Source: Crateriforma conspicua | GTDB taxonomy: Bacteria; Planctomycetota; Planctomycetia; Pirellulales; Pirellulaceae | Reading direction: 5' to 3' | Assembly (NCBI RefSeq): GCF_007752935.1 | Contig: NZ_CP036319.1 | Span: 4,340,001-4,404,000, forward strand | Length of the DNA: 64,000 bases | Part shown: piece after piece, positions 9,130-19,741 of the stretch | How the letters are laid out: every line of letters begins with the position of its first letter | Position numbering within the stretch: position 1 is the first letter of the stretch | The notes under the pieces: model-generated | Told to the model about the DNA's origin: nothing | Database searches by the model: none | Seen by the model: the letters and a program-made list of their open reading frames with translations, nothing else | Position numbers and translations under genes: made by a program

Positions 9130-10029
9130 ATGACGACGACGCCAGTTCATCGCAATCGCCGACGTCGCGTCATCGCCGCGGTCGTCCTGACCATCGGATG
9201 GGGCGTCATCGCAGCCACCGATTTGAATGCCCAATTGCCCCCGGAAATTACCGAAGACGAAAACATTCGCGTGACTCGGGTGACTCCCGAAGCGGCGTTG
9301 GCCCAGCTGCAACAAGAATATGCCCAGCTGCTGCGAACGGTCGGCGCCGATCATCCTGACGCCCAAGGTGTGGCCCAGCAAATCAGCCAGATCCGAATGG
9401 GCTTGGCGGCATTGGGACGACCGGTCGACGACGATGCGATGTCCAGCGACGTTCCCGCGGTGACAATTCCCCAAAGCACCCTTCCACCCAATACAGTTCC
9501 AGCCGATCGGGCCGCGGCGACCGACGCATCCGCCAGTGACGGTGAAGAAGCGGAGCTGAGCCTGAACCCGCGACAGGTCCAATTGCTACAGGATCGCTAC
9601 CGCGAATTGGAGCAATCACTCGGCACGTCGCACCCGATGGTCCAGCAACTGGCCGCTTTGTTGGGACGTTTGACGGCGGAGGTCCCGACCGCGCCGCCAG
9701 CGTTCGCCCCCGCCGGATCGCCGGCATTTCCCGCTGCGCCCCCGGGGATTCCGCCGCTTGCGCCATCGACCGTCGATCCGAACAATTCGCCCGCATCACC
9801 ATCGGGCGATCCGATGCTGAATCCCGAATCGGCGGATCCTTATGACCTGCTGGTGATCATGGCAAGACGAGTGGTGCGGCTGGAACAGGAAGTGTTGCGA
9901 ATGCGCGACGAAATCCAGCGTTTGCGTGACAGCGATCGCGACGCACGATTGGTCCCGGGGACCGGCGACCGTGACGCCGGCACCACCACGGATTCCCTGC
10001 CTCCGGCATTGGAATCTTTGCGGCCCTAG
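9130..10029 (+). CDS. Secreted coiled-coil protein with two LQxxY...LG.xHP units, function unknown
   Basis: 299 aa. It has a basic start followed by a hydrophobic signal sequence ending near AATDLNAQ. The mature part holds two related segments: LQQEYAQLLRTVGADHPDAQGV (around 57-78) and LQDRYRELEQSLGTSHPMVQQL (around 155-176). Each is an amphipathic helix followed by an (G/T)xxHP turn and another helix, as also seen in polysaccharide chain-length determinant proteins. A Pro/Ala-rich linker leads to a C-terminal heptad stretch (VVRLEQEVLRMRDEIQRLRD). I do not recognise the family. It sits just before the ECF sigma factor gene on the same strand and may belong to that transcript. Confidence 0.7.
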   Translation: MTTTPVHRNRRRRVIAAVVLTIGWGVIAATDLNAQLPPEITEDENIRVTRVTPEAALAQLQQEYAQLLRTVGADHPDAQGVAQQISQIRMGLAALGRPVDDDAMSSDVPAVTIPQSTLPPNTVPADRAAATDASASDGEEAELSLNPRQVQLLQDRYRELEQSLGTSHPMVQQLAALLGRLTAEVPTAPPAFAPAGSPAFPAAPPGIPPLAPSTVDPNNSPASPSGDPMLNPESADPYDLLVIMARRVVRLEQEVLRMRDEIQRLRDSDRDARLVPGTGDRDAGTTTDSLPPALESLRP

Positions 10030-10106
10030 CAATAAGAATATCTTTTTCCGATGAATCGTCGGGATTTTTGAATAAATCAACACGACGCCCGCATCCCCGT
10101 GTTGTC

Positions 10107-10670
10107 ATGCCGCCCACTGAACTTTCCGACCGCGTTCGTCTGCAGGCCAGACGTATCATCGAAAGCCGATCGGCCGCCCTGTCGGGTCTGTACGACCTGA
10201 CCGCGGTTCGATTGTTTCGTTACGCGTCGTCGATCACTCGTCACGCCCAGGATGCGGAAGACGCGGTGCAATCGGCGTTGGTCCAGGTCGCCGATCGTCC
10301 TTGGATGATCGTCGATTCGGATCAACCTTGGCCGTATTTGCTGCGGATGGTCCGCAACGAATCGTTGATGATCGTTCGCAAGCGTCGACGATGGGCATTG
10401 CTGACCAGCATCTCGGATCGTCTGATCGGCCGCGGTGACGATTCACTGGACCGGCATGAAACGGAAGACCAGGTCTGGCGAGCCTTGAGCGAGCTGCCGC
10501 CAGAACAAAGCGAGCCGGTTGTACTGAAGATCTGGGAAGACCTGACGTTTGCTCAGATCGGCGAAATGCTGGAAATCCCCGCCGCGACGGCAGCCAGTCG
10601 TTACCGATACGCGATCACCAAACTGCAGCAGAAGCTTCAACACGTTGCACCGGAGCATCTATCATGCTGA
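10107..10670 (+). CDS. ECF-type RNA polymerase sigma factor
   Basis: 187 aa from the ATG at 10107; a TTG 39 bases upstream is in frame and could extend it by 13 residues. Region 2 is seen in LYDLTAVRLFRYASSITRHAQDAEDAVQSALVQV and region 4 in ALSELPPEQSEPVVLKIWEDLTFAQIGEMLEIPAATAASRYRYAITKLQQKL, a helix-turn-helix with the usual -35-binding layout. It redirects RNA polymerase to a small set of promoters. The next gene overlaps its stop by 7 bases and encodes a small one-span membrane protein, the usual place for an anti-sigma factor. Downstream on the same strand is the pseudopilin cluster, so the factor could control it. Confidence 0.9.
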   Translation: MPPTELSDRVRLQARRIIESRSAALSGLYDLTAVRLFRYASSITRHAQDAEDAVQSALVQVADRPWMIVDSDQPWPYLLRMVRNESLMIVRKRRRWALLTSISDRLIGRGDDSLDRHETEDQVWRALSELPPEQSEPVVLKIWEDLTFAQIGEMLEIPAATAASRYRYAITKLQQKLQHVAPEHLSC

Positions 10671-11035
10671 CCAAGTGCGACCACGATGCATTGGAACCAC
10701 CGTCGGTGGAACGTTTGATCGATCAAGCGGGACGCGGCGTTCGCGTGAACGAAACACTGCGGTTGCGAACGATCGACGAAGCCCGACGTCGTGATCAGGA
10801 AAGATCGCTGCGACAATCCTTGGCCGCGACGGTGTTGTTCGTGTTTGTGGTCTTGTCCGCGGTCACGTTCAGTTTTGAATTGATGCGACAAGATTTTCTG
10901 AAACATCCGTCCGATTCAACGGGTGTGGTGATTCCAACCCACAACCACGAAGCCACCGTTTCACCTTGGAAACTGGTCGATGCGGTGGATCATTGGCGAC
11001 GGTCCCAAGCGCAACAGTGGAACGGCGGTCGTTAG
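10664..11035 (+). CDS. Small single-span membrane protein, possible anti-sigma partner
   Basis: 123 aa. It has a soluble N-terminal half with charged helices (VERLIDQAGRGVRVNETLRLRTIDEARRRDQERSLRQSL), one membrane span (AATVLFVFVVLSAVTFSFEL) and a short outer tail. There is no zinc-anti-sigma HxxxCxxC motif. The ATG overlaps the end of the sigma factor gene by 7 bases, so the two are translated together. Position and topology suggest a sigma-sequestering protein, but this is inference. It could also be a small membrane component of the pseudopilin machine that follows. Confidence 0.65.
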   Translation: MLTKCDHDALEPPSVERLIDQAGRGVRVNETLRLRTIDEARRRDQERSLRQSLAATVLFVFVVLSAVTFSFELMRQDFLKHPSDSTGVVIPTHNHEATVSPWKLVDAVDHWRRSQAQQWNGGR

Positions 11036-11160
11036 GTCGATTTTCTGGCAAACTTTTTTAAACAAATCGTTTGCCTGATTGCATCATCCCTGTAAAGCCG
11101 CGAAGCATTCGGCCAAGCCGTGACGCCTTCGCACCGATGCTTTGATCGATAGGAATGATG

Positions 11161-12198
11161 ATGCCAGATCCACCCGCACCCGATTCGCCGACGCCGGATC
11201 GTGATGCCACAAGGGTTGAATTTTCGCAGTGTGTGGAATTTAACCAGTTGTTGGTCGCGCTCAGCCGGGCAGATCTTTCGCTGCGGCTTTATCCCGGTCG
11301 ATACGGCGACGCCTTTGTTGACGATTTGCGGGCCCTGGAATCCGACATCGCGCGTTCGATCGGCTTGGGCGGCGAACTGCCAGCGGTATTGGATGATGTG
11401 AAGGTTACTCCGCCACGATACGCCGCCGCGTTTCGCACTTGGGTTGGCAAAGCGGATGCGTCGGTGGCCCTGTCAGCATTCACCCAGTCCGACCCTCGTG
11501 AATCGCTGCAACTGCACGCCTGGTATCGGACCGGTGCAAGCTTGGCGGTTCTGTTGGCGGTCGCTTGCGTGGTGTTCGTCATGGCGGCCGTTTTCAGTGC
11601 CCCGCGCATGGATCGATTGTTCGACGATCTGGGCTTGGACGGTGGCGACCAAACGGGCCTGTTGTGGTGGATGGCCGGCACCGTTTGCATCGCTGTATTT
11701 GTATTGTTGGCTGCCGGATTTTATTTCGGCCGCCGCGTATTGGGCGGACTCCACGATTCGATTGCCAACTCCAATCTTTCGAACTTCGGATCGTCCGCCC
11801 GCCGCCAATCCTTTGCATCCGACATCGCCGCTCGGACCGCGGCACTGGTGTCCACGGGTTGGTCGTCTGACGTTGCGGTGCGTGAATCCATCCGATTGTC
11901 GGTGAACCGAAACGATCCGCCGGGCGCCTGGGGTTCACTGCTGCAATGGGCCAGTCGTACGGAGTCTAGCCCGCATTCCGCGGACGGTGCGGACCCGCCC
12001 ACTGGCCCAACCGAAGGCTCCAGCCCGGCATTTTTTCAGTCCGTGTCCAACGCGTATCAGCAACTGTCGGAATTTGGCCGACCACGCCAATCGCTTTGGC
12101 CCGCGCTGACCCATGCATTGATCGGTGGCGTGTTGGTGGCAACGGCCGCGTATTTTCTGATCGGCCCCTATGTTCGACTTCTCATTGCGGTCAGCTGA
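11161..12198 (+). CDS. GspF-like inner-membrane protein, divergent (first of three)
   Basis: 345 aa from the third of three consecutive ATGs (11155, 11158, 11161). AGGA at 11151-11154 gives the last one a 6-base spacing. Two membrane spans lie near residues 123-145 and 170-190 and a third at the C-terminus (IGGVLVATAAYFLIGPYVRLLIAVS). The segment FASDIAARTAALVSTGWSSDVAVRESIRLS resembles the GspF pattern of a helix, a short turn and LxxALxxA, and the C-terminal span is where GspF/PilC proteins have theirs. The match is weaker than for the next two genes. GspF proteins are the inner-membrane platform of type II secretion and type IV pili. Confidence 0.6.
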   Translation: MPDPPAPDSPTPDRDATRVEFSQCVEFNQLLVALSRADLSLRLYPGRYGDAFVDDLRALESDIARSIGLGGELPAVLDDVKVTPPRYAAAFRTWVGKADASVALSAFTQSDPRESLQLHAWYRTGASLAVLLAVACVVFVMAAVFSAPRMDRLFDDLGLDGGDQTGLLWWMAGTVCIAVFVLLAAGFYFGRRVLGGLHDSIANSNLSNFGSSARRQSFASDIAARTAALVSTGWSSDVAVRESIRLSVNRNDPPGAWGSLLQWASRTESSPHSADGADPPTGPTEGSSPAFFQSVSNAYQQLSEFGRPRQSLWPALTHALIGGVLVATAAYFLIGPYVRLLIAVS

Positions 12199-12204
12199 CA
12201 AGTC

Positions 12205-13116
12205 ATGAATCAAACCAACAGCCCACCGGAACCGCTGACCTGCGAACAAGCGTTTGCAGCGGAGATCGGCTATCGACAAGTCACCCGTCTGCTACGAGGC
12301 CGCCGGACACTGGAACGGTCTGGCGAAACCGAGATATCGGCGACATCGGCCGCAGCCGCCGTGGAACTGGCTTCGATTCGCCTGGCCAACCGGCGACGTC
12401 GCATCGCTCAGGTCCTGTATCCGCTGTGTGTGTTTGTATTGACCGTGATCGTCTTTCTGGTTTTGAATTTCACGGTCATTCAAGACTTCCGACAGATGTT
12501 TTCCGAATTCGGTCTACAGCTTCCGGCACCCACCCTGTTGTTGGTCAACCTTAGCCGTGCCGCGGGCGATTCGCCGCTGGGATTTCTGTTTTGGATCGTG
12601 ATCATTTCTCTGGTGATCGTTGGGATCTCCATCGCCATGATTCGATTCGCATTCGCCTATCGGCCGCTACGATTTTTTACCGCCGGATCGATGTCACCCA
12701 CCGAAACCGTGGCGGAACTGAGCAGTTTGGGTGCCGAAGCATTTCGCGGGGGTGCCGATGCAAGACGCGTGGCCGACCATTTGACGCAGGTTGCCTACCC
12801 GGCACCGTACCGGCACGCCCTACAGCAATTGTCGGCGGTAATCTCTGGCGAACAGACCCCCACGCGACTGGAGGATCTGGACAGTTTGCTGCCGCCCAGC
12901 TTTATCGCGGCATTCGCGCCGCATCAATCATCCGAATCGGCCGCCAAGTCATTGGAAACGGTTTCCCGAGTGTACGTCCAGCGATTGCGAATCCGCGGAG
13001 TGACACGCGGCGGGATCCCGGCGGAAGTTGTGCTGGTCTTTCTGGGCGGCATGATTGGTTTGTTGATCATCGCGTTGATGATGCCTCTTGTGTCGCTGAT
13101 TTCGGGGCTCAGCTGA
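12205..13116 (+). CDS. GspF-like inner-membrane platform protein (second of three)
   Basis: 303 aa. Two membrane spans at about residues 68-92 and 128-152 and a C-terminal span (VVLVFLGGMIGLLIIALMMPLVSLISGLS) that fits the GspF C-terminus well. The stretch before it (SAAKSLETVSRVYVQRLRIRGVTRGGIPAEV) matches the family pattern of an amphipathic helix followed by a positively charged turn. In type II secretion and type IV pili GspF/PilC binds the assembly ATPase and scaffolds pseudopilins. It starts 7 bases after the previous gene and its stop overlaps the next start (TGATG). Confidence 0.75.
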   Translation: MNQTNSPPEPLTCEQAFAAEIGYRQVTRLLRGRRTLERSGETEISATSAAAAVELASIRLANRRRRIAQVLYPLCVFVLTVIVFLVLNFTVIQDFRQMFSEFGLQLPAPTLLLVNLSRAAGDSPLGFLFWIVIISLVIVGISIAMIRFAFAYRPLRFFTAGSMSPTETVAELSSLGAEAFRGGADARRVADHLTQVAYPAPYRHALQQLSAVISGEQTPTRLEDLDSLLPPSFIAAFAPHQSSESAAKSLETVSRVYVQRLRIRGVTRGGIPAEVVLVFLGGMIGLLIIALMMPLVSLISGLS

Positions 13117-14306
13117 TGTCTTGGCAAACGATCATTGAAAAAAGCGTGATCCTTTCATCGCTGCGATCGCTATGGCGACGGATCGAAACATTGATGCCTG
13201 CCGCGATTGCGGACTTGGATTCACTTGGCAGTGCGTTTCGGTCCACGCCGGCTTTCAAACGAGACGCGATCGCGGCGTTGCAGTTCGGCACACTGCAGTG
13301 GATCGATCATAGCCATCGTCAGGGGACCGATCTGATCAAGACCCTGAACCGTTATGCAAGCGAAAATCGCGGATGGTATCGACGACGTCTGCGATTGATG
13401 ACCACGCGGTTGCGTGAAGGCACGTCGTTGGTCGACGCCATCGAACAGACCCCGGGGGTGCTTTCGGATGAAGACGCGATTGCAATCCGCTTTGCCGTTC
13501 AGAATGGCACGTTACCCACGACATTGGAACGTCTGGCGGCACAGCCGGATCTGTTGCGTCCGCAAACGCAAAGCCGCATTCGATCCACCCTTCGTTACGC
13601 CGTTTTGCTTTTGGTGGTCGGTTGGCTCGTTCTGCTTTGGATGCAGATGATTTTCATCGACGGTGGTATCCAACGATTTTTGTTGGCGTTCCGCGATTCG
13701 ATGCTGGGATGGTCGGTCCCGGATCAAGACCCTCCGCCACTGGACCGTGCGATTTTGTGGATCGACTGGATCGGCCAGAACTGGGTGCTGTGCCTGTTGG
13801 TGATCTTTATTGCCGGATGGTTGTTGCTGGCCCGTGCCCCTCGTCGCTGGTTGTCCCGGCGTATCGAACGCAGCGGTTGGGCACGACGAAACCGCACACA
13901 AATCCCGACCTTGTTGGATTTGCTGGCCGATGCATCGCAGTGCGGGCGGCCCCTGGTCGCATCGGTTTCCACGCTGGGGCGATATCACTTCGACCCGAAA
14001 ACACGTCAACGTTTTCTGTTCGCACGGAACGAGATGGACCATGGCATCGCACCCTGGGAAGCCCTAGCGGAGTGCGGAGTGACCACCACCGCCGAATCCA
14101 ACGCGCTGACGATCGCCCGCGATGTAGACCGGCCGTGGATTTTGCGGTCGCTTGCCAGTCAATTGCGCGAAAATTCGGCACGACGTTTTGAATGGGTCGC
14201 CTTGATACTTCAGTTGGCCGTCGTCCTGCTGTTCGCTTTGGTGGTGATGGCCTTGGGTTGGGTGTTGTTCGGAACCTTAGCGGAGCTGATTCATGGACTT
14301 GCCTAG
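13116..14306 (+). CDS. GspF-like inner-membrane platform protein (third of three)
   Basis: 396 aa from the ATG at 13116 overlapping the previous stop; the frame is open upstream but that part runs inside the preceding gene. It looks like a nearly full GspF: a helical domain (LKTLNRYASENRGWYRRRLRLMTTRLREGTSLVDAIEQTPGVLSDEDAIAIRFAVQNGTL) followed by a membrane span near 155-175. After a second span near 225-245 comes a second helical domain (LLDLLADASQCGRPLVASVSTLGRYHF) and a C-terminal span. Three GspF-like genes in a row is unusual, since most systems use one. The next gene overlaps its end by 14 bases. Confidence 0.8.
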   Translation: MSWQTIIEKSVILSSLRSLWRRIETLMPAAIADLDSLGSAFRSTPAFKRDAIAALQFGTLQWIDHSHRQGTDLIKTLNRYASENRGWYRRRLRLMTTRLREGTSLVDAIEQTPGVLSDEDAIAIRFAVQNGTLPTTLERLAAQPDLLRPQTQSRIRSTLRYAVLLLVVGWLVLLWMQMIFIDGGIQRFLLAFRDSMLGWSVPDQDPPPLDRAILWIDWIGQNWVLCLLVIFIAGWLLLARAPRRWLSRRIERSGWARRNRTQIPTLLDLLADASQCGRPLVASVSTLGRYHFDPKTRQRFLFARNEMDHGIAPWEALAECGVTTTAESNALTIARDVDRPWILRSLASQLRENSARRFEWVALILQLAVVLLFALVVMALGWVLFGTLAELIHGLA

Positions 14307-14742
14307 CGTTCCCAGGCGAACGGTGCCCCGTATCGTCAACCGCGGTGGTTTTTCGATCACCGAAGTCGTCACCGGATGTTTTTTGATAACCGTCATGGTG
14401 GGTGCAGTGGCACCGATCGCATTGCTGTCGCGAAAGACCGCCGACATCGCCCACCAATCGCAAATCGCGACGGAGATTCTGTCGGCGGAACTGGATCGGT
14501 TGACGATGATGCCGGCGGAAGAAGCGCAGAAACAACTTACGACGTATCCAAAAAGCGATGGCGTCCATCCCGCGCTACTGCAGGCGACGCTTCGCGGCAC
14601 TTACTTGGACGACACCGACGGCGCAAGAATCCAAATGACTTTGACTTGGGGTGCACCCCAGCGTCGACGATCCACATCACTGGTCGGCTGGATCAACGAT
14701 GCGGACGCCCAAGCGATGATCAAAGCGGAGCCATCGCCATGA
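14293..14742 (+). CDS. Minor pseudopilin-like protein with prepilin cleavage motif
   Basis: 149 aa. After 18 mostly polar residues comes the prepilin motif RGGFSITEVVTGCFLITVMVGAVAPIAL: glycine before the cut, phenylalanine after it, and glutamate at mature position +5, leading into the hydrophobic helix that anchors and polymerises pilins. A prepilin peptidase, which is not in the window, would cleave after the glycine. The short globular part fits a GspI-like minor pseudopilin, but that identity is only positional. The ATG overlaps the third GspF-like gene by 14 bases and the stop overlaps the next start (ATGA). Confidence 0.8.
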   Translation: MDLPSVPRRTVPRIVNRGGFSITEVVTGCFLITVMVGAVAPIALLSRKTADIAHQSQIATEILSAELDRLTMMPAEEAQKQLTTYPKSDGVHPALLQATLRGTYLDDTDGARIQMTLTWGAPQRRRSTSLVGWINDADAQAMIKAEPSP

Positions 14743-15296
14743 CCCAAAACTCCATCAGCCGAAACGGCCGACGTGGCAACGCCGGCGGTGTCCATCGACG
14801 CCACTCCCCCTATCGGTTCACCGGATTTTCGTTGATCGAAATGTTGGTGTCCCTGTCGTTGGCCAGCATGCTGGGAACGATTGCGGTGGGCTTGCTATTG
14901 CGTTGCCAACAACTGTCTGACGGCACCAACAGCCAATTGGACCAGATCCAAACGTTCAGCCGGTTGGCCGACACCTTTCGCAACGACGTCCATACCGCGT
15001 TGTCGGCCGACGCGGAAACAAATGCATCGGTCACGCTGCGATACGCTGGCGATTTCGTGATTCGATATCAGTGGGACCAAACCAACAGTCGAATCGTCCG
15101 ATCGACCCGACGTTCCGACCAGATCGTCGCATCGGAGTTGTACGTTTTGTCGTCGAAGACTCAGGCCAGATTTGAACAATCCTTCGACCCAAACATCGTG
15201 CGACTGAATTTGGAAACCGCCGGGCGATCTGACAAGGCAACAAACGCGGTGGTCTGCCAAGCCGTCGTTCATCGTTGGCCGGAGGTTTCGAAATGA
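14739..15296 (+). CDS. Minor pseudopilin-like protein, GspJ-like
   Basis: 185 aa from the ATG at 14739, coupled to the previous stop. A long polar leader (about 28 residues) precedes the prepilin motif FTGFSLIEMLVSLSLASMLGTIAVGLLLR, with the conserved glycine and the +5 glutamate. The rest is a small globular domain with segments such as FRNDVHTALSA, typical of PulJ/GspJ-like pseudopilins. Such proteins sit at the tip of the pseudopilus. The stop overlaps the next gene by 4 bases (ATGA at 15293-15296). The GspJ label is tentative; the prepilin nature is clear. Confidence 0.8.
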   Translation: MTQNSISRNGRRGNAGGVHRRHSPYRFTGFSLIEMLVSLSLASMLGTIAVGLLLRCQQLSDGTNSQLDQIQTFSRLADTFRNDVHTALSADAETNASVTLRYAGDFVIRYQWDQTNSRIVRSTRRSDQIVASELYVLSSKTQARFEQSFDPNIVRLNLETAGRSDKATNAVVCQAVVHRWPEVSK

Positions 15297-15739
15297 TGAA
15301 ACATTCCATTCATCACCCGATCACCCGTCGTCGCGGTTCGCTTGTCTTGATCGCCCTGGTGTGCCTGATCGTCGGCATGTCCGTCTTGGTGTCATCGGCG
15401 CACCGTGCGTTGTTGGTGCAACGACAAACCGAACGCTTCACAGCGTTGCGGCAGTGTCAGTGGCTGCTGGACGCCGGAATCAATCGCGCCGTTGTGGCCA
15501 TCCAGAATGACGCCGAATACGACGGCGAATCATGGCAATTGGACCAGCCCCTGCCCGGCCGGCGTACCGGTCGGGTGACGATCGCGGTGCAAGCGTCCGA
15601 GTCGGCGAAAGGTTCGTCTCGGATCCAGGTGACCGCCGTTGTTGAAACCAGAAACTCGCCGGTCGGCCGCGGCCAGATACGGCGCAGCCATTCATTCCAC
15701 CTTCCCGTTTCCGATAATCACGCCCAGGATTCCCAATAA
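15293..15739 (+). CDS. GspK/PilX-like minor pilin component
   Basis: 148 aa. The ATG at 15293 is chosen over an in-frame TTG 18 bases earlier because GGAGG lies at 15281-15285 with good spacing. The N-terminus has a basic leader and hydrophobic helix (RRRGSLVLIALVCLIVGMSVLVSSAHRALLVQRQTER) followed by a helix and a beta-rich domain. This is the layout of GspK or PilX-type minor pilins, although the usual glutamate at +5 is not seen. In type II secretion GspK caps the pseudopilus. Stop and next start overlap (TAATG), so it is translated together with the DUF1559 protein. Confidence 0.7.
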   Translation: MMKHSIHHPITRRRGSLVLIALVCLIVGMSVLVSSAHRALLVQRQTERFTALRQCQWLLDAGINRAVVAIQNDAEYDGESWQLDQPLPGRRTGRVTIAVQASESAKGSSRIQVTAVVETRNSPVGRGQIRRSHSFHLPVSDNHAQDSQ

Positions 15740-16653
15740 TGTACACGTCTCATTCCCGGCGGCGAATTCACTCCCTAGCCGGCTTTACCTTGGTTGAATT
15801 GTTGGTGGTGATCGCGATCATCGGTGTGCTGATCGGACTGTTGCTGCCGGCGGTACAATCCGCGCGTGAAGCGGCACGTCGATGCAGTTGCGCGAACAAT
15901 CTGGTCCAGATGGGTTTGGGCATGCATCAATACGAATTCGCCAACGAAAGCTTTCCTTCCGGTGTGATCGATGACGAGGGCCCGATCCGCAACGAACCCA
16001 TGGGGCGACACGTGTCATGGACCGTTCAGATCCTGCCATTCATTGAACAAGTCAATGTGTCGCGGCACTTTGACCAGGAAGCCGGCGCGTATGCCAGTGT
16101 GAACATACCGCCACGAAAACAATACATTCCCACCTATATTTGTCCGTCCGAACCGCGGGCGTCGGTCGAGATGATGCCATCCGACACGGCATCGGAGGAT
16201 CAATCACAGATTCCGCAAGAGTTTCCGATCAGCAGTTATGCCGGATGCCAAAATGATGTCGAAGCCAGCATTGATGCGGACCGCAATGGGATTCTGTTCT
16301 TCAACAGCGACGTGCGGTTCGAAGATCTGACTGATGGATCTTCCCAGACCCTGCTGATCGGTGAAGTCCGCCACGAGGAAACCTTGCTCGGTTGGCCATC
16401 GGGAACGCGATCGACCTTGCGTAACGCCGTCGACATCAATTCCATTTCGTCTTATCGATCGGAACCCGACCCTGAACCATCACCACTCGGACCGCTGGAC
16501 GTCGGAGGTTTTTCCAGCAATCACCCGGGCGGTTGCAACTTTGTGTTCGCCGACGGGTCGGTGCGTTTCCTGTCCGAAGCGATCGAACCGGACCTCCTTC
16601 GCCAACTCGGCCATCGTGCCGATGGCGAACTGTTGGAAGGCGACGGGCTGTAG
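15739..16653 (+). CDS. DUF1559 domain prepilin-like protein
   Basis: 304 aa. It has the planctomycete prepilin head LAGFTLVELLVVIAIIGVLIGLLLPAVQSAREAARR, with cleavage expected after the glycine near residue 14. The DUF1559 body follows, including RCSCANNLVQMGLGMHQYEF and the terminal GGCNFVFADGSVRFLSEAI, which is diagnostic of the family. DUF1559 proteins occur in very high numbers in planctomycetes and their role is unknown; the head shows that they use the pilin export route. It is the last gene of the cluster that starts at the ECF sigma factor. Confidence 0.93.
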   Translation: MYTSHSRRRIHSLAGFTLVELLVVIAIIGVLIGLLLPAVQSAREAARRCSCANNLVQMGLGMHQYEFANESFPSGVIDDEGPIRNEPMGRHVSWTVQILPFIEQVNVSRHFDQEAGAYASVNIPPRKQYIPTYICPSEPRASVEMMPSDTASEDQSQIPQEFPISSYAGCQNDVEASIDADRNGILFFNSDVRFEDLTDGSSQTLLIGEVRHEETLLGWPSGTRSTLRNAVDINSISSYRSEPDPEPSPLGPLDVGGFSSNHPGGCNFVFADGSVRFLSEAIEPDLLRQLGHRADGELLEGDGL

Positions 16654-16725: not shown

Positions 16726-17268
16726 TCATAACCATCGTCCGAACCAGTCTCCCACCGCATCGGTGAACGACCGTGCCGCTTCGCCCATCGGTTTCGCCGT
16801 CCCCAGTTGATCTCCCAGCCCGGGCAAGGCCATCGCGGTGACCAAGAACAGAATGAATCCGGCAAAGGCCAGCGTGGATGTTCCCGCGCTGTCGGTTCCG
16901 CGAACATCACCATTGCGAAACAGCGACCAACTGACATGTTCACTGGGCGGTTCGGTCAAGTCTCTTAAACGCCGCATGCCGACTTGGACATGCCCGTCGG
17001 GGGAATGAAAGAACCACTGTGCGTGGACCTCGAACCGGGTGCCATCAAACTCCAACACCCAGGGACGCCCCACTTTGACGTGTTTGGCTCCTTCCGGTGT
17101 GACCAGAACAGTGAAACCATCAATGCTGGTTTCCTGTACGGTGACGGCTAGCTTACGCCGTCCGATTCGGATCAAGGCGGATCCTTGATCGGCCTGAACC
17201 GGGCAACGAAAGAAATCCGACGTGGCCTCTTCTGGCGAATCGCAGTGTTGGACGTCTGATTGGCTCAT
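16726..17268 (-). CDS. PilZ-like protein with C-terminal membrane span
   Basis: 180 aa from the ATG at 17268; the frame runs on to a TTG at 17298. The soluble part resembles a PilZ-type beta-barrel: IRIGRRKLAVTVQETSIDGFTVLVTPE contains a degenerate (D/N)xSxxG motif, here ETSIDG, and later strands (PWVLEFDGTRFEVHAQWFFHSPDGHVQVGMRRL) fit. A membrane span follows (TLAFAGFILFLVTAMAL). Real PilZ domains bind cyclic di-GMP through an RxxxR motif, which I do not see clearly, so binding is doubtful. It is convergent with the pseudopilin operon, 72 bp from its end. Confidence 0.55.
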   Translation of the reverse strand: MSQSDVQHCDSPEEATSDFFRCPVQADQGSALIRIGRRKLAVTVQETSIDGFTVLVTPEGAKHVKVGRPWVLEFDGTRFEVHAQWFFHSPDGHVQVGMRRLRDLTEPPSEHVSWSLFRNGDVRGTDSAGTSTLAFAGFILFLVTAMALPGLGDQLGTAKPMGEAARSFTDAVGDWFGRWL

Positions 17269-17791
17269 GCTGGGTACGCTCGTTTGCGTTGGCGACAAAT
17301 CACTCCGTCATGCGATGGATCACCACCGGCCTGATCGCCAGGTCGTTGATCCGTCGCATGGTCGTACGGGATGTCCGGTCCGCCCCCGATGCGAAAACCG
17401 TCGCGGGACCTCCGACACATCGGTTCACCCGATCGGGCGACTCGTGGAGAGAGTCCTGCGTTGGAAAGCTAGGTCACGATGCCCCGCTTGGCTCAGGCAG
17501 ATCATCAAACCGTGACATTTTTCACCCACCCGTGGGGCGGGGCAGGAAAAGAATTCCGGTTACAGGGGCTGTACCGGTCACGCAGTCGGCCGAAACCAGC
17601 CAACCGTTTCGGATGACGCGGATCTTGACGATCGGACGGGTCGCATGAATCGATCGGATCACAAGGGCAGTCCCAGATGCACCAATCCGATCGGTCATTC
17701 GGCGTCGATCGATTGAAACGAGGAATCGTTGATCCGTCGCCGGCACCGCTGCGCGGATCGATCATCGCCCACCGCGAACACGGAAGTGCAG
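17269..17791. other. Intergenic region, about 520 bp, no gene recognised
   Basis: This stretch separates the PilZ-like gene (minus) from the cytochrome gene (plus). Short open frames occur on both strands (for example 17289-17648 plus), but none has a family motif, a supported start or planctomycete-like protein composition. GGAAG at 17782-17786 is the ribosome binding site of the cytochrome gene. No clear terminator or RNA structure was noticed. Confidence 0.5.
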
Positions 17792-19741
17792 ATGCCGCCA
17801 CAGCGTCGAATCGACATTCGACAGGACGCCGCGCCGAACAAACGTAAGTCGCGAAACCGTCTGGCCGCGCGCATGGCGGGCCCTTGGCCGCTGGCGTGCG
17901 TGATGGCGATCGCCTGTGTAGCGGCGATCGGTGCGTCGTGGGGACGCGCCGACGATGAAAGCCTATTGCTGGCTGATCCGGCCGATACTGCGACGTCAGC
18001 GAACGACGATCCGCTGTTGAACATGGCGCGGCCGAAAGAGACCGGAAAAGATCCCGCTAAGAAAAAAGCGGACAACCAATCTGATTCCCAAGCGGAAGAC
18101 CCACACCTGCAACTGTGGACCGAAAACTGTTACCCGTCGGCGGAAACCTGCCGCAAGTGCCATCCTAAGCAATACGACGAATGGTCCATCAGCAGCCACG
18201 CCTATGCCGCGGTGTCGCCGATGTTCCAGCGGTTCGAACAAGCGATGACCGAATTGACTCAGGGCACCGTGGGTTCGTTCTGTGTCCGGTGCCATTCCCC
18301 TGTGCAAACGCAACTGGAATTGCCCCGTGACCTTAGCCTGTTGGAAGCCCCCGCGGTGGTCCGCGAGGGGATCACATGCATCGCCTGTCACCGAGTCAAC
18401 GAGCATTATGGGCGCAGCCACGGTGACCGCCGCATCGAACCCGGCAATATCCACGCCCCGGTCAACGGCGGTCACGGCGGCCACGGATTGCGTGATGCGT
18501 TGGCACAAGCGAACAAGTTGAAACTGAAAACAAGTCCTGACCAAAAAGGCCCGGGACAACCCATTCACGCATCGGCCAACTTCTTTTCGCCGATCACCAA
18601 CAGTGACGTCTGTGTTTCCTGTCACCAAGTCGCCGTGCATCCAGGGCTGTGGCTAGAGATCGTTCACGCCCAATATCGGTCGGGTCCCGCCGAAGCCAAG
18701 GGCATCAGTTGCCAAGACTGTCACATGGGTGCCGTTCCCGGGAAGCCCCTGGGATACGAACAAGGCCATGCCGCGGTCCTGAACGACAAACCCTTTGGCA
18801 CACCTCGTAAACATTCCAATCACACCTTTTGGGGTCCGGGATACTCGATCGCCCATCCGGGCATTTTCCCCCATCACCCCAAGGCCAGAAAGATCGCGCC
18901 GCGCGACTGGCTGGCTTTCGATGTGAACGCCGGCTGGGGCACCAAAGCTTTCGAAGATCGCGTCGACGATTCCGTGGTCTTTCCCGAACCCTGGTCGACG
19001 GTCGACGATCGCATCGATGGACGAAAAATCATCGATGAAAACATTGCACGCGTGCACGAAAAACGATCGTCATCGGCGATCACACTGGAATCCGCGATCA
19101 AGGTCAGCGACCCGATTTTTTATCATCCACCGCGGTCCGGCCGACCGCTTCACGTGGGCTTCCGCATCGATAACGTCAGCGAAGGCCACAACGCACCGAC
19201 GGGATCCCTGGGCGCTCAGCCGCAACTGTGGCTAAACGCGGTCTTGATTGATCCGAAAGGCCGCCGCGTTTGGGAAACCGGTTACCTGGATCGACAGGGT
19301 GACCTTGCGGATCTGCACAGCGTTGATGTGGCCCGCGGGCACGTTCCCCGCGACGCAGAACTGTTCAATCTGCAAACGAAGTTCTTGATTAACAACATTC
19401 GCGGAACCGATCGCGAAGTGTCGTTGCCGTTGAACTTCAGTTTGGACCAGTTGGTGTTTCTGCGCCCTGGTGCGGTGCCGGTCAGCGTGCTGAATCACCC
19501 TCCGCTGATTCGCATGGAAGCTCATTCCATCCCGCCGCTGGATCACCGCATCGCCAATTACACGATCCCACCCACCGCAATGAAGTTGCCGGGCCCCTAT
19601 CGGCTAAGTGTGCGTATGCGAAGCCGGACCGAACCGATCTATTTCATGAAATTGATCGGCGCCTCGCCGGACATGATTCGCCGCATGAACGCGAACATGA
19701 TCGACATCAATCAACGCAGTCACACATTCTGGGTGCGCTGA
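17792..19741 (+). CDS. Five-heme cytochrome c, cytochrome c554-like
   Basis: 649 aa from the ATG at 17792, which has GGAAG six bases upstream. The N-terminus is a basic stretch and hydrophobic signal sequence ending near WGRADD, so it is exported. Five CxxCH heme sites are seen at residues 120 (CRKCH), 164 (CVRCH), 196 (CIACH), 274 (CVSCH) and 307 (CQDCH), all in the first half. Extra histidines nearby can be second axial ligands. The first half resembles the cytochrome c554 group. The second half (from about 390) has no heme site and is beta-rich. The next gene, one base away, is a porin-like protein, which suggests that electrons are passed across or near the outer membrane. Confidence 0.9.
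   Translation: MPPQRRIDIRQDAAPNKRKSRNRLAARMAGPWPLACVMAIACVAAIGASWGRADDESLLLADPADTATSANDDPLLNMARPKETGKDPAKKKADNQSDSQAEDPHLQLWTENCYPSAETCRKCHPKQYDEWSISSHAYAAVSPMFQRFEQAMTELTQGTVGSFCVRCHSPVQTQLELPRDLSLLEAPAVVREGITCIACHRVNEHYGRSHGDRRIEPGNIHAPVNGGHGGHGLRDALAQANKLKLKTSPDQKGPGQPIHASANFFSPITNSDVCVSCHQVAVHPGLWLEIVHAQYRSGPAEAKGISCQDCHMGAVPGKPLGYEQGHAAVLNDKPFGTPRKHSNHTFWGPGYSIAHPGIFPHHPKARKIAPRDWLAFDVNAGWGTKAFEDRVDDSVVFPEPWSTVDDRIDGRKIIDENIARVHEKRSSSAITLESAIKVSDPIFYHPPRSGRPLHVGFRIDNVSEGHNAPTGSLGAQPQLWLNAVLIDPKGRRVWETGYLDRQGDLADLHSVDVARGHVPRDAELFNLQTKFLINNIRGTDREVSLPLNFSLDQLVFLRPGAVPVSVLNHPPLIRMEAHSIPPLDHRIANYTIPPTAMKLPGPYRLSVRMRSRTEPIYFMKLIGASPDMIRRMNANMIDINQRSHTFWVR

Follow-up and report, generated by a model that had tools for sequence, protein, structure and literature searches.

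Nine consecutive genes of Crateriforma conspicua, lying in the 64,000-nucleotide stretch analysed here (the window; positions 4340001-4404000 of a 7.18-Mb genome that is a single contig), are likely to encode a machine of the type IV filament superfamily that builds a pseudopilus and serves a single DUF1559 prepilin. We propose that three GspF/PilC-family proteins, F1, F2 and F3, form its probable hetero-trimeric platform, and that the machine borrows an ATPase or runs without one. The superfamily features found are a class III prepilin signal, a GspF/PilC platform protein and an available prepilin peptidase. The genes (sigma, sm, F1, F2, F3, I, J, K and D) occupy 10107-16653 of the plus strand one after another. 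Neighbouring genes overlap by 1-14 nt at six junctions (sigma/small, F2/F3, F3/I, I/J, J/K and K/D), F1 and F2 are spaced by 6 nt, and the sole real gap, 119 nt between the small gene and F1, holds a promoter-like site. An earlier note, made from the sequence alone, had described nine co-directional genes, several of them overlapping, headed by an extracytoplasmic function (ECF) sigma factor, and these are indeed present at that place and on that strand:

10069..10095, plus strand: promoter-like site before the sigma gene, a variant of TTAGACAAA-N13-GCGCATC with 3 mismatches
10107..10670, plus strand: ECF-type sigma factor (Pfam Sigma70_r4_2 5e-10, r2 3e-7; NCBIfam sigma70-ECF 1e-18)
10664..11035, plus strand: sm, small protein with one transmembrane segment (53-71), candidate anti-sigma factor or sensor; no family match in Pfam or NCBIfam
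11059..11085, plus strand: promoter-like site before F1, 2 mismatches to the consensus
11155..12198, plus strand: F1, divergent GspF/PilC-family platform protein (hhalign 99.43-99.71%, nearly full length)
12205..13116, plus strand: F2, GspF/PilC-family platform protein with a reduced first cytoplasmic domain (hhalign 99.91-99.94%)
13116..14306, plus strand: F3, GspF/PilC-family platform protein with two T2SSF domains (Pfam T2SSF 2e-21; hhalign 99.80-99.86%)
14293..14742, plus strand: I, minor pseudopilin-like protein with a GFSITE N-terminus (from its sequence; R.G....E motif in a 34-row alignment)
14739..15296, plus strand: J, minor pseudopilin-like prepilin (Pfam N_methyl 3e-5; NCBIfam IV_pilin_GFxxxE)
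15293..15739, plus strand: K, GspK-like short minor pseudopilin without Glu5 (NCBIfam GspK 0.0024, sub-threshold; 33-row alignment)
15739..16653, plus strand: D, DUF1559 prepilin with an H-X9-DG C-terminus, proposed major pseudopilin (Pfam DUF1559 3.7e-55, N_methyl 5e-6; NCBIfam H-X9-DG 2e-11)

The sigma factor shows the ECF composition in Pfam, that is, regions 2 and 4 without region 3, and sm is the only unassigned gene of the nine, which leaves no other member of the block free to be a counterpart of GspC, GspL or GspM.

Three distinct GspF/PilC-family proteins

Pfam T2SSF recognizes two stretches of F3, matches F2 below threshold only (0.0057) and leaves F1 with unrelated sub-threshold matches; F2 also matches NCBIfam PilC at 5e-11, under the cut-off of that model. 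Iterative profile searches of relatives yielded orthologues of the three proteins, for comparison with five aligned canonical GspF/PilC proteins from the same genome. Two loci with a wrong or missing F1 (L087 and L098) were left out of the F1 profile, and L098 also out of those of F2 and F3. With strictly one profile per open reading frame (ORF), hhalign matched F1, F2 and F3 to the canonical proteins at 99.55%, 99.94% and 99.86%, respectively, and with the smaller first-round sets at 99.43%, 99.91% and 99.80%. The pairwise comparisons F1-F2, F1-F3 and F2-F3 gave 98.8-99.9%. Column-shuffled profiles stayed below 1% in 15 runs, and a further eight profiles, those of I, J, K, E, sigma, D, the small protein and TadB/C, did not exceed 7%. 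Searched against the PDB, the F1 profile aligned with PilC over nearly its whole length (8.4e-24) and also found four GspF/PilC cytoplasmic-domain sequences at 3e-7 and weaker. Hydropathy analysis, with overlapping windows merged, places three membrane regions in each of the three proteins. The AlphaFold2 (AF2) model of F1 is of moderate quality (predicted local distance difference test (pLDDT) 81, predicted template-modelling score (pTM) 0.62) and adds little.

Judged by these profile comparisons, F1, F2 and F3 are all GspF/PilC homologues. The earlier note had spoken of three distinct GspF-like proteins, a description borne out by hhalign at 99.4-99.9% and by the F1 match to PilC in the PDB at 8e-24. 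The comparison with GspF/PilC profiles that it proposed identifies F1 and F2 as GspF relatives, and an origin of these two outside the GspF family is ruled out by hhalign together with the PDB profile search. In a tree of the F proteins, F1 (98/99) and F3 (100/99) are each separated from the rest by a single branch, and only the minimum of three changes is needed for the four groups taken together; the triplication is therefore older than the spread of the block.

The own genome has T2SSF at eight places; judged from positions, only that in the window and an orphan gene at 435685 have no adjoining T2SSE. The orphan (435685-436632; L101:8647-9687) belongs to the GspF family and contains two T2SSF stretches; its surroundings hold no T2SSE gene and no prepilin gene that we could recognize by eye.

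Recurrence of the block and purifying selection

A search with F3 found relatives in 38 of 119 family genomes (E<=1e-6, own genome counted). A degenerate peptide pattern of D, GWxSGTR[AS][TS]L, found 319 relatives in genome contigs; the best 80 of these 319, which were kept, are all titled Planctomycetota, and those with a genus name are mostly Pirellulales; five of the 80 bear the title Candidatus Kuenenia. F3 is present in 68 of the 80 D-anchored loci, and several of the other 12 end near D at a contig end. At E<=1e-60 the full D profile matches 36 of the 392 genomes searched in the phylum, every one of them from the window's class, and 85 of the 119 in the family. These counts set upper limits on the frequency of the machine, since the profile also picks up D paralogues that stand apart from such blocks. 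Altogether 153 loci were fetched, 133 of them with F3. Eleven of the 133 are second copies of the same DNA or carry a near-identical F3 and were excluded from the non-redundant counts, leaving 122, of which 104 span the whole block (115 with duplicates). The 20 loci without F3 comprise the 12 D-anchored ones and 8 other D genes, most of them outside such blocks. Since loci were found via F3 or D, the co-occurrence of the two is partly built in for the F3-anchored set.

The complete series F1-F2-F3-I-J-K-D is found in 97 of the 104 non-redundant spanning loci (108 of 115 with duplicates), so the synteny survey of relatives suggested in the earlier note shows the core order to recur. Extra D-type genes follow D in nine of the 104. 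D and sigma are the most conserved members of the block, with identities to the window copy of at least 47% in 31 relatives for D and at least 44% in 21 for sigma; median identities are 19-28% for F1, F2, F3, I, J, K and the small protein. The ratio of nonsynonymous to synonymous substitution rates (dN/dS), calculated against the genome of a congener, is 0 for sigma, 0.08 for the small gene, 0.18 for F1, 0.11 for F2, 0.10 for F3 and 0.07 for D, and reaches 0.38 for I, 0.38 for J and 0.34 for K. All nine genes are thus under purifying selection (dN/dS 0-0.38). A chance assembly or a pseudogene block is ruled out by the conserved order and this selection.

The same data bear on another idea, in which the block would be a paralogue of the housekeeping type II secretion system in the course of decay. 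The absence of the ATPase gene E and the poor conservation of F1, I, J and K (median identity 19-27%) would suit decay, but dN/dS is low in all nine genes, gene order is kept across a 66-locus clade without E, D is retained at 47% identity or more, and the cluster ATPases of relatives form a group of their own, apart from the own type II GspE. We regard decay as highly improbable.

The block limits 10107-16653 look right, because the two flanking genes tested as further parts (a convergent gene at 16726-17298 and a gene ending at 10029) have matches, among the fetched loci, only in the same genus and are common only to the window and the congener. Further downstream, at 17729-19741 of the window, lies a gene for a multihaem cytochrome c554-like protein (Pfam Cytochrome_C554, 2e-10). 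Elsewhere, bins titled Candidatus Kuenenia stuttgartiensis (L120, L123, L124, L153 and L160) contain Pirellulales-like D genes or blocks and are probably mislabelled, and more divergent related blocks or D genes (L256-L259) coexist in several Pirellulaceae genomes.

A dedicated ATPase in some relatives

No T2SSE gene is present at the window locus, and the nearest one in the own genome is far away. Of the 93 non-redundant loci for which more than 2.5 kb upstream is available, 11 (11 of 101 when duplicates are counted) have a gene for a GspE-like ATPase (E) directly before F1; at one further locus, L128, the contig begins inside an ATPase gene that directly precedes F1. These cluster ATPases are 394-455 aa long (ORF from the first start; L128 excepted) and keep the stretches GPxGSGKTT, QDPxV..GE.RD and FHAG, which we take to be the Walker A, Walker B and His-box elements, and most of them a CxxC motif. 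The one that was scanned, from L223, matches GspE from profile position 95 on, without an N-terminal part, and hence lacks the first GspE N-domain, described as binding PulL in the accessible text of PMC10790770.

A tree was made of 12 cluster ATPases and the 14 T2SSE proteins that the window genome has; the ATPase of L231, distant from its F1 by about 1.7 kb, was left out. In this tree the cluster ATPases form one group (97/99; 96% of bootstrap trees) with none of the 14 inside. A relocated dedicated ATPase in the window genome is ruled out, as its 421-aa orphan at 6036885 groups with the protein at 3962154 and not with the cluster ATPases. At L242 (8720-11044), also represented in this tree, a D-like gene immediately follows a gene for a cluster-type ATPase and F1-F3 are lacking, which gives the impression of a split block.

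Sigma is present in three of the 11 E loci (L223, L225 and L229). The detected order in L223 and L225 is sigma-small-E-F1-F2-F3-I-J-K-D (sigma profile 2e-70 and 2e-69), and the window arrangement therefore looks like this order minus E. Among non-redundant loci with sigma, the small gene and F1, 37 of 39 are without E and hold no remnant of it in the gap (45 of 47 with duplicates). We built a midpoint-rooted tree of D from 92 of 101 loci, with identical, short or D-less rows dropped and the window represented by its congener. A 66-locus clade (97/95), mostly Pirellulales by label and including the congener, has E in none of its loci; outside it, E is found in 11 of 26. The simplest reading is that E was probably lost early in this clade and the rest of the block retained.

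Across 58 chosen genomes, ATPases of the cluster type score 436-680 bits, canonical GspE/PilB proteins (about 490 aa or more) at most 389 and a second short type 375-412. Among the matches listed (at least about 346 bits), 29 genomes have the cluster type and 8 only the second type; the remaining 21, the window genome among them, have neither. At least one GspE/PilB-type match exists in all 58, and in the own genome the best candidate for action in trans is the type II GspE at 375 bits, the next reaching 372. In G085, G090, G110 and G115, by coordinates and among the matches listed, a divergent D match lies about 5-6 kb from a short ATPase.

A profile built from four secretin pieces of the own genome detects no secretin within the block at any of the 115 spanning loci. 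The sole match, in L070, is a secretin fragment that we read as Tad-like, several kb off and on the other strand. The own genome has seven secretins above cut-off, all away from the block; one directly adjoins the housekeeping type II system, in which NCBIfam recognizes GspE, GspF and GspG, only GspG above the curated cut-off. Of the earlier description of the block as one without ATPase or secretin, the second half thus holds. The first is true at the window locus and in its clade but is not general, given the GspE-like ATPase, a group of its own, upstream in 11 of 93 relatives. A gspE/gspD pair that always adjoins the block, which the earlier note had named as speaking against its view, is not seen, since E is a part of the block only sometimes and a secretin in none of the 115 spanning loci.

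Prepilins and a putative regulon

D combines a DUF1559 domain (PF07596, 188 bits) with an N_methyl signal (26 bits), both above cut-off. N_methyl is above cut-off in J as well, and I and K have sub-threshold matches only, their class III signal being recognized by motif. The AF2 model of D (pLDDT 87) begins with a 52-residue N-terminal helix; Foldseek retrieved with it a pilin helix only (1ay2, E 0.3) and nothing for the globular part. Prepilin peptidase PF01478 is above cut-off at two places in the own genome, both unlinked to the block. A slowly evolving main subunit D accompanied by fast minor subunits, as seen in conservation and dN/dS, would suit a filament system. The earlier note had seen in the terminal gene a possible link between the expanded DUF1559 family and an assembly machine of its own. 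We find the link fixed for one DUF1559 subfamily; our evidence does not extend to the family as a whole. That family counts 68 paralogues in Planctopirus limnophila, two members being essential, according to the accessible text of PMC10632474. At L230 (8557-13872) five D-like DUF1559 genes stand in tandem, with no platform gene found within the 19 kb fetched.

Sigma and the small protein travel together. In the 93 non-redundant loci with more than 2.5 kb upstream, both are present in 34, sigma alone in 1 and neither in 58; put differently, the small protein accompanies 34 of 35 sigma genes and occurs at none of the 58 sigma-less loci. The motif TTAGACAAA-N13-GCGCATC, counted as TAGACAAA-N13-CGCATC, lies upstream of sigma with at most two mismatches in 29 of 41 non-redundant loci (none in letter shuffles) and before F1 in 12 of 41 (0.15 in shuffles). 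Of 36 sigma sites with three mismatches or fewer, 33 have a spacing of 13. The congener has a sigma site with three mismatches and, before F1, nothing better than four in the stretch scanned. In 32 genomes the exact motif occurs at 24 sites, compared with 11 for the reversed pattern, and by coordinates 17 of the 24 are at blocks and 3 at unlinked sigma genes. Five of the searched genomes have a sigma-less block. In G006, G072 and G085 (L263, L264 and L265) a sigma-small pair stands elsewhere behind the same motif; in G028 and G036 no exact motif was found, and the search of these two went no further. These data suggest a small self-activating regulon centred on the machine, in which the sigma factor would recognize the motif and the small protein may act as anti-sigma factor. 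The only exact motif of the window genome lies just before another DUF1559 gene (7109471-7110592, minus strand; L266:3472-4593). We treat it as a lead only, as the reversed control also matches once in this genome and the congener is without this gene.

Proposed mechanism and alternatives

In the model that we favour, the ECF sigma factor, probably held by the small membrane protein, would transcribe its own gene and the F1 operon from TTAGACAAA-N13-GCGCATC promoters. A shared prepilin peptidase, encoded elsewhere in the genome, would cut the prepilins D, I, J and K. By analogy with GspI/J/K-G and in view of the conservation of D, I-J-K may start the filament and D polymerise as its main subunit. 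F1, F2 and F3 would share a single platform, for which a 1:1:1 heterotrimer replacing the homotrimer of GspF is the simplest arrangement. The original motor of this platform was presumably a dedicated GspE-like ATPase whose gene stood immediately upstream; with that gene missing in the window's clade, the machine would now depend on a borrowed ATPase, the likeliest candidate being GspE from the housekeeping type II system. Because the block has no secretin of its own, the filament formed by the predicted machine would stay periplasmic or use the secretin of another system.

Several observations weigh against this model. The presumed borrowing of an ATPase is without a known case. On the midpoint-rooted and otherwise unrooted D tree, the label E needs five changes, at least three of them forced, and, beyond the 66-locus clade, 15 of the 26 remaining loci are without E as well. 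I and K are assigned by position and weak motifs only. The promoter-like sites of the window, with two to three mismatches, are by themselves not above chance (7 sites at three or fewer mismatches, 5.2 expected). Foldseek found no significant match for the F1 model, the best being the PilC N-domain at E 0.7, and F2 forms no clean clade in the F tree, where it needs two changes. Finally, the channel residues known from PulF are altered: F3 keeps the proline of transmembrane segment 1 (TMS1) in 0 of 118 sequences, and the TMS3 glutamate is at its column in 0 of 100 F1, 11 of 111 F2 and 3 of 118 F3.

The channel was described in Klebsiella PulF, for which the accessible text of PMC10790770 supports a homotrimer and models a 6:3 complex with the ATPase hexamer. 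Its central channel has a Tyr-Pro pair (TMS1) and a Glu-Pro pair (TMS3), described there as conserved in GspF/PilC, and all five canonical GspF proteins of the own genome keep both pairs. The TMS1 tyrosine is kept in 68 of 100 F1, 103 of 111 F2 and 96 of 118 F3, and the TMS1 proline in 69 of 100 F1 and 101 of 111 F2; at the TMS3 site of F1, where the proline is aligned one column early, a glutamate lies within -2 to +1 columns in 1 of 100. At TMS1 the window copies differ: F1 lacks both Tyr and Pro, F2 retains Tyr-Pro and F3 Tyr alone. As different channel residues are lost in F1, F2 and F3, complementary rather than free-standing units fit these data. A hetero-oligomeric F1-F2-F3 platform is plausible and would fit the published PulF trimer model (PMC10790770).

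Alternatively, the three proteins could be separate homo-oligomeric platforms, each serving a different pilin or ATPase. PulF itself is a homotrimer (PMC10790770), and some genomes have several D-type genes and several short ATPases. Yet all three proteins are kept in nearly every spanning locus, even where there is one D and no E, and each has lost different channel residues, which makes this arrangement unlikely in our view.

The filament might also be assembled without a cytoplasmic ATPase, the loss of E being tolerated through use of the ion-motive force by the three-subunit platform or through mere partitioning of prepilins into a short, static pseudopilus. In keeping with this, the dedicated ATPase group is absent from the single-contig window genome, 21 of the 58 chosen genomes are without such an ATPase among the matches listed, and PulF has been proposed as an ion channel that helps to energise assembly (PMC10790770). 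However, the proposed PulF channel acts with the ATPase and not in its stead (PMC10790770), and a GspE/PilB-type match that may serve is found in every one of the 58. The ion-driven version is weakened because F1 lacks the glutamate at the constriction of the PulF channel, and few F2 and F3 sequences have it. We consider ATPase-free assembly rather unlikely. The stronger claim that the whole clade has permanently shed its motor ATPase, and that an obligate F1-F2-F3 heterotrimer assembles DUF1559 filaments without ATP hydrolysis at the platform, appears quite improbable. A shared ATPase acting on a heterotrimeric platform is the reading that we carry forward.

Relation to known filament systems

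Compared with the earlier note, the present analysis adds that the motor was probably lost during evolution and that a promoter motif connects sigma with the block. The DUF1559 family gains one concrete assembly context with an ordered parts list. Natural evidence is provided on the disputed stoichiometry of the GspF platform, because three co-inherited, differently degraded paralogues are the expected product of a trimer. The clade without E, in which the rest of the block is under selection, is a natural experiment that bears on ATPase sharing, or ATPase-free operation, in type IV filament machines.

Like type II secretion systems (GspD-E-F-G-H-I-J-K, L, M), the block has a GspF-family platform, I/J/K-like minor prepilins and one main prepilin and, in some relatives, a GspE-like ATPase. 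It differs in its three GspF paralogues, in a DUF1559 protein in the place of GspG, and in having no secretin and, in this lineage, no ATPase. The Com competence pseudopilus (ComGA-ComGB-ComGC..G) is encoded by a compact operon of ATPase, platform and several prepilins, and in monoderms needs no secretin. The block shares with it the compact operon of platform and several prepilins; Com, however, has one ComGB, its ComGA is present, and its main pilin is the small ComGC rather than a DUF1559 protein, whereas the block occurs in diderm bacteria. The Verru_Chthon prepilin families TIGR02596 and TIGR02599, which occur in a cassette context in a related phylum, resemble the block in comprising prepilin-like proteins, the matches being sub-threshold and N-terminal only.

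More than one platform protein is also a feature of the Tad/Flp pilus (TadA, TadB, TadC). TadB and TadC are halves with one T2SSF domain each that arose by gene fission (PMC6668835, accessible text), whereas F3 has two T2SSF domains. The F profiles reach at most 7% against the own TadB/C, which rules out a TadB/C-like fission as the origin of the F proteins. The same survey of the superfamily reports pairs of platform homologues in Tad and in some archaeal systems, and the string 'planctomycet' does not occur in its accessible text (PMC6668835). Literature searches by title and abstract on DUF1559 and on planctomycete pseudopilins, type IV filaments and GspF found no machine with three GspF proteins, although a subscription-only description is possible. 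The trimer of Klebsiella PulF, with three GspF-family chains round one axis, would offer a natural place for F1, F2 and F3 (PMC10790770), but it is the product of one gene, and its Tyr-Pro and Glu-Pro channel pairs are only partly kept in the three proteins. The block is a variant of the type IV filament machines rather than a separate kind of machine.

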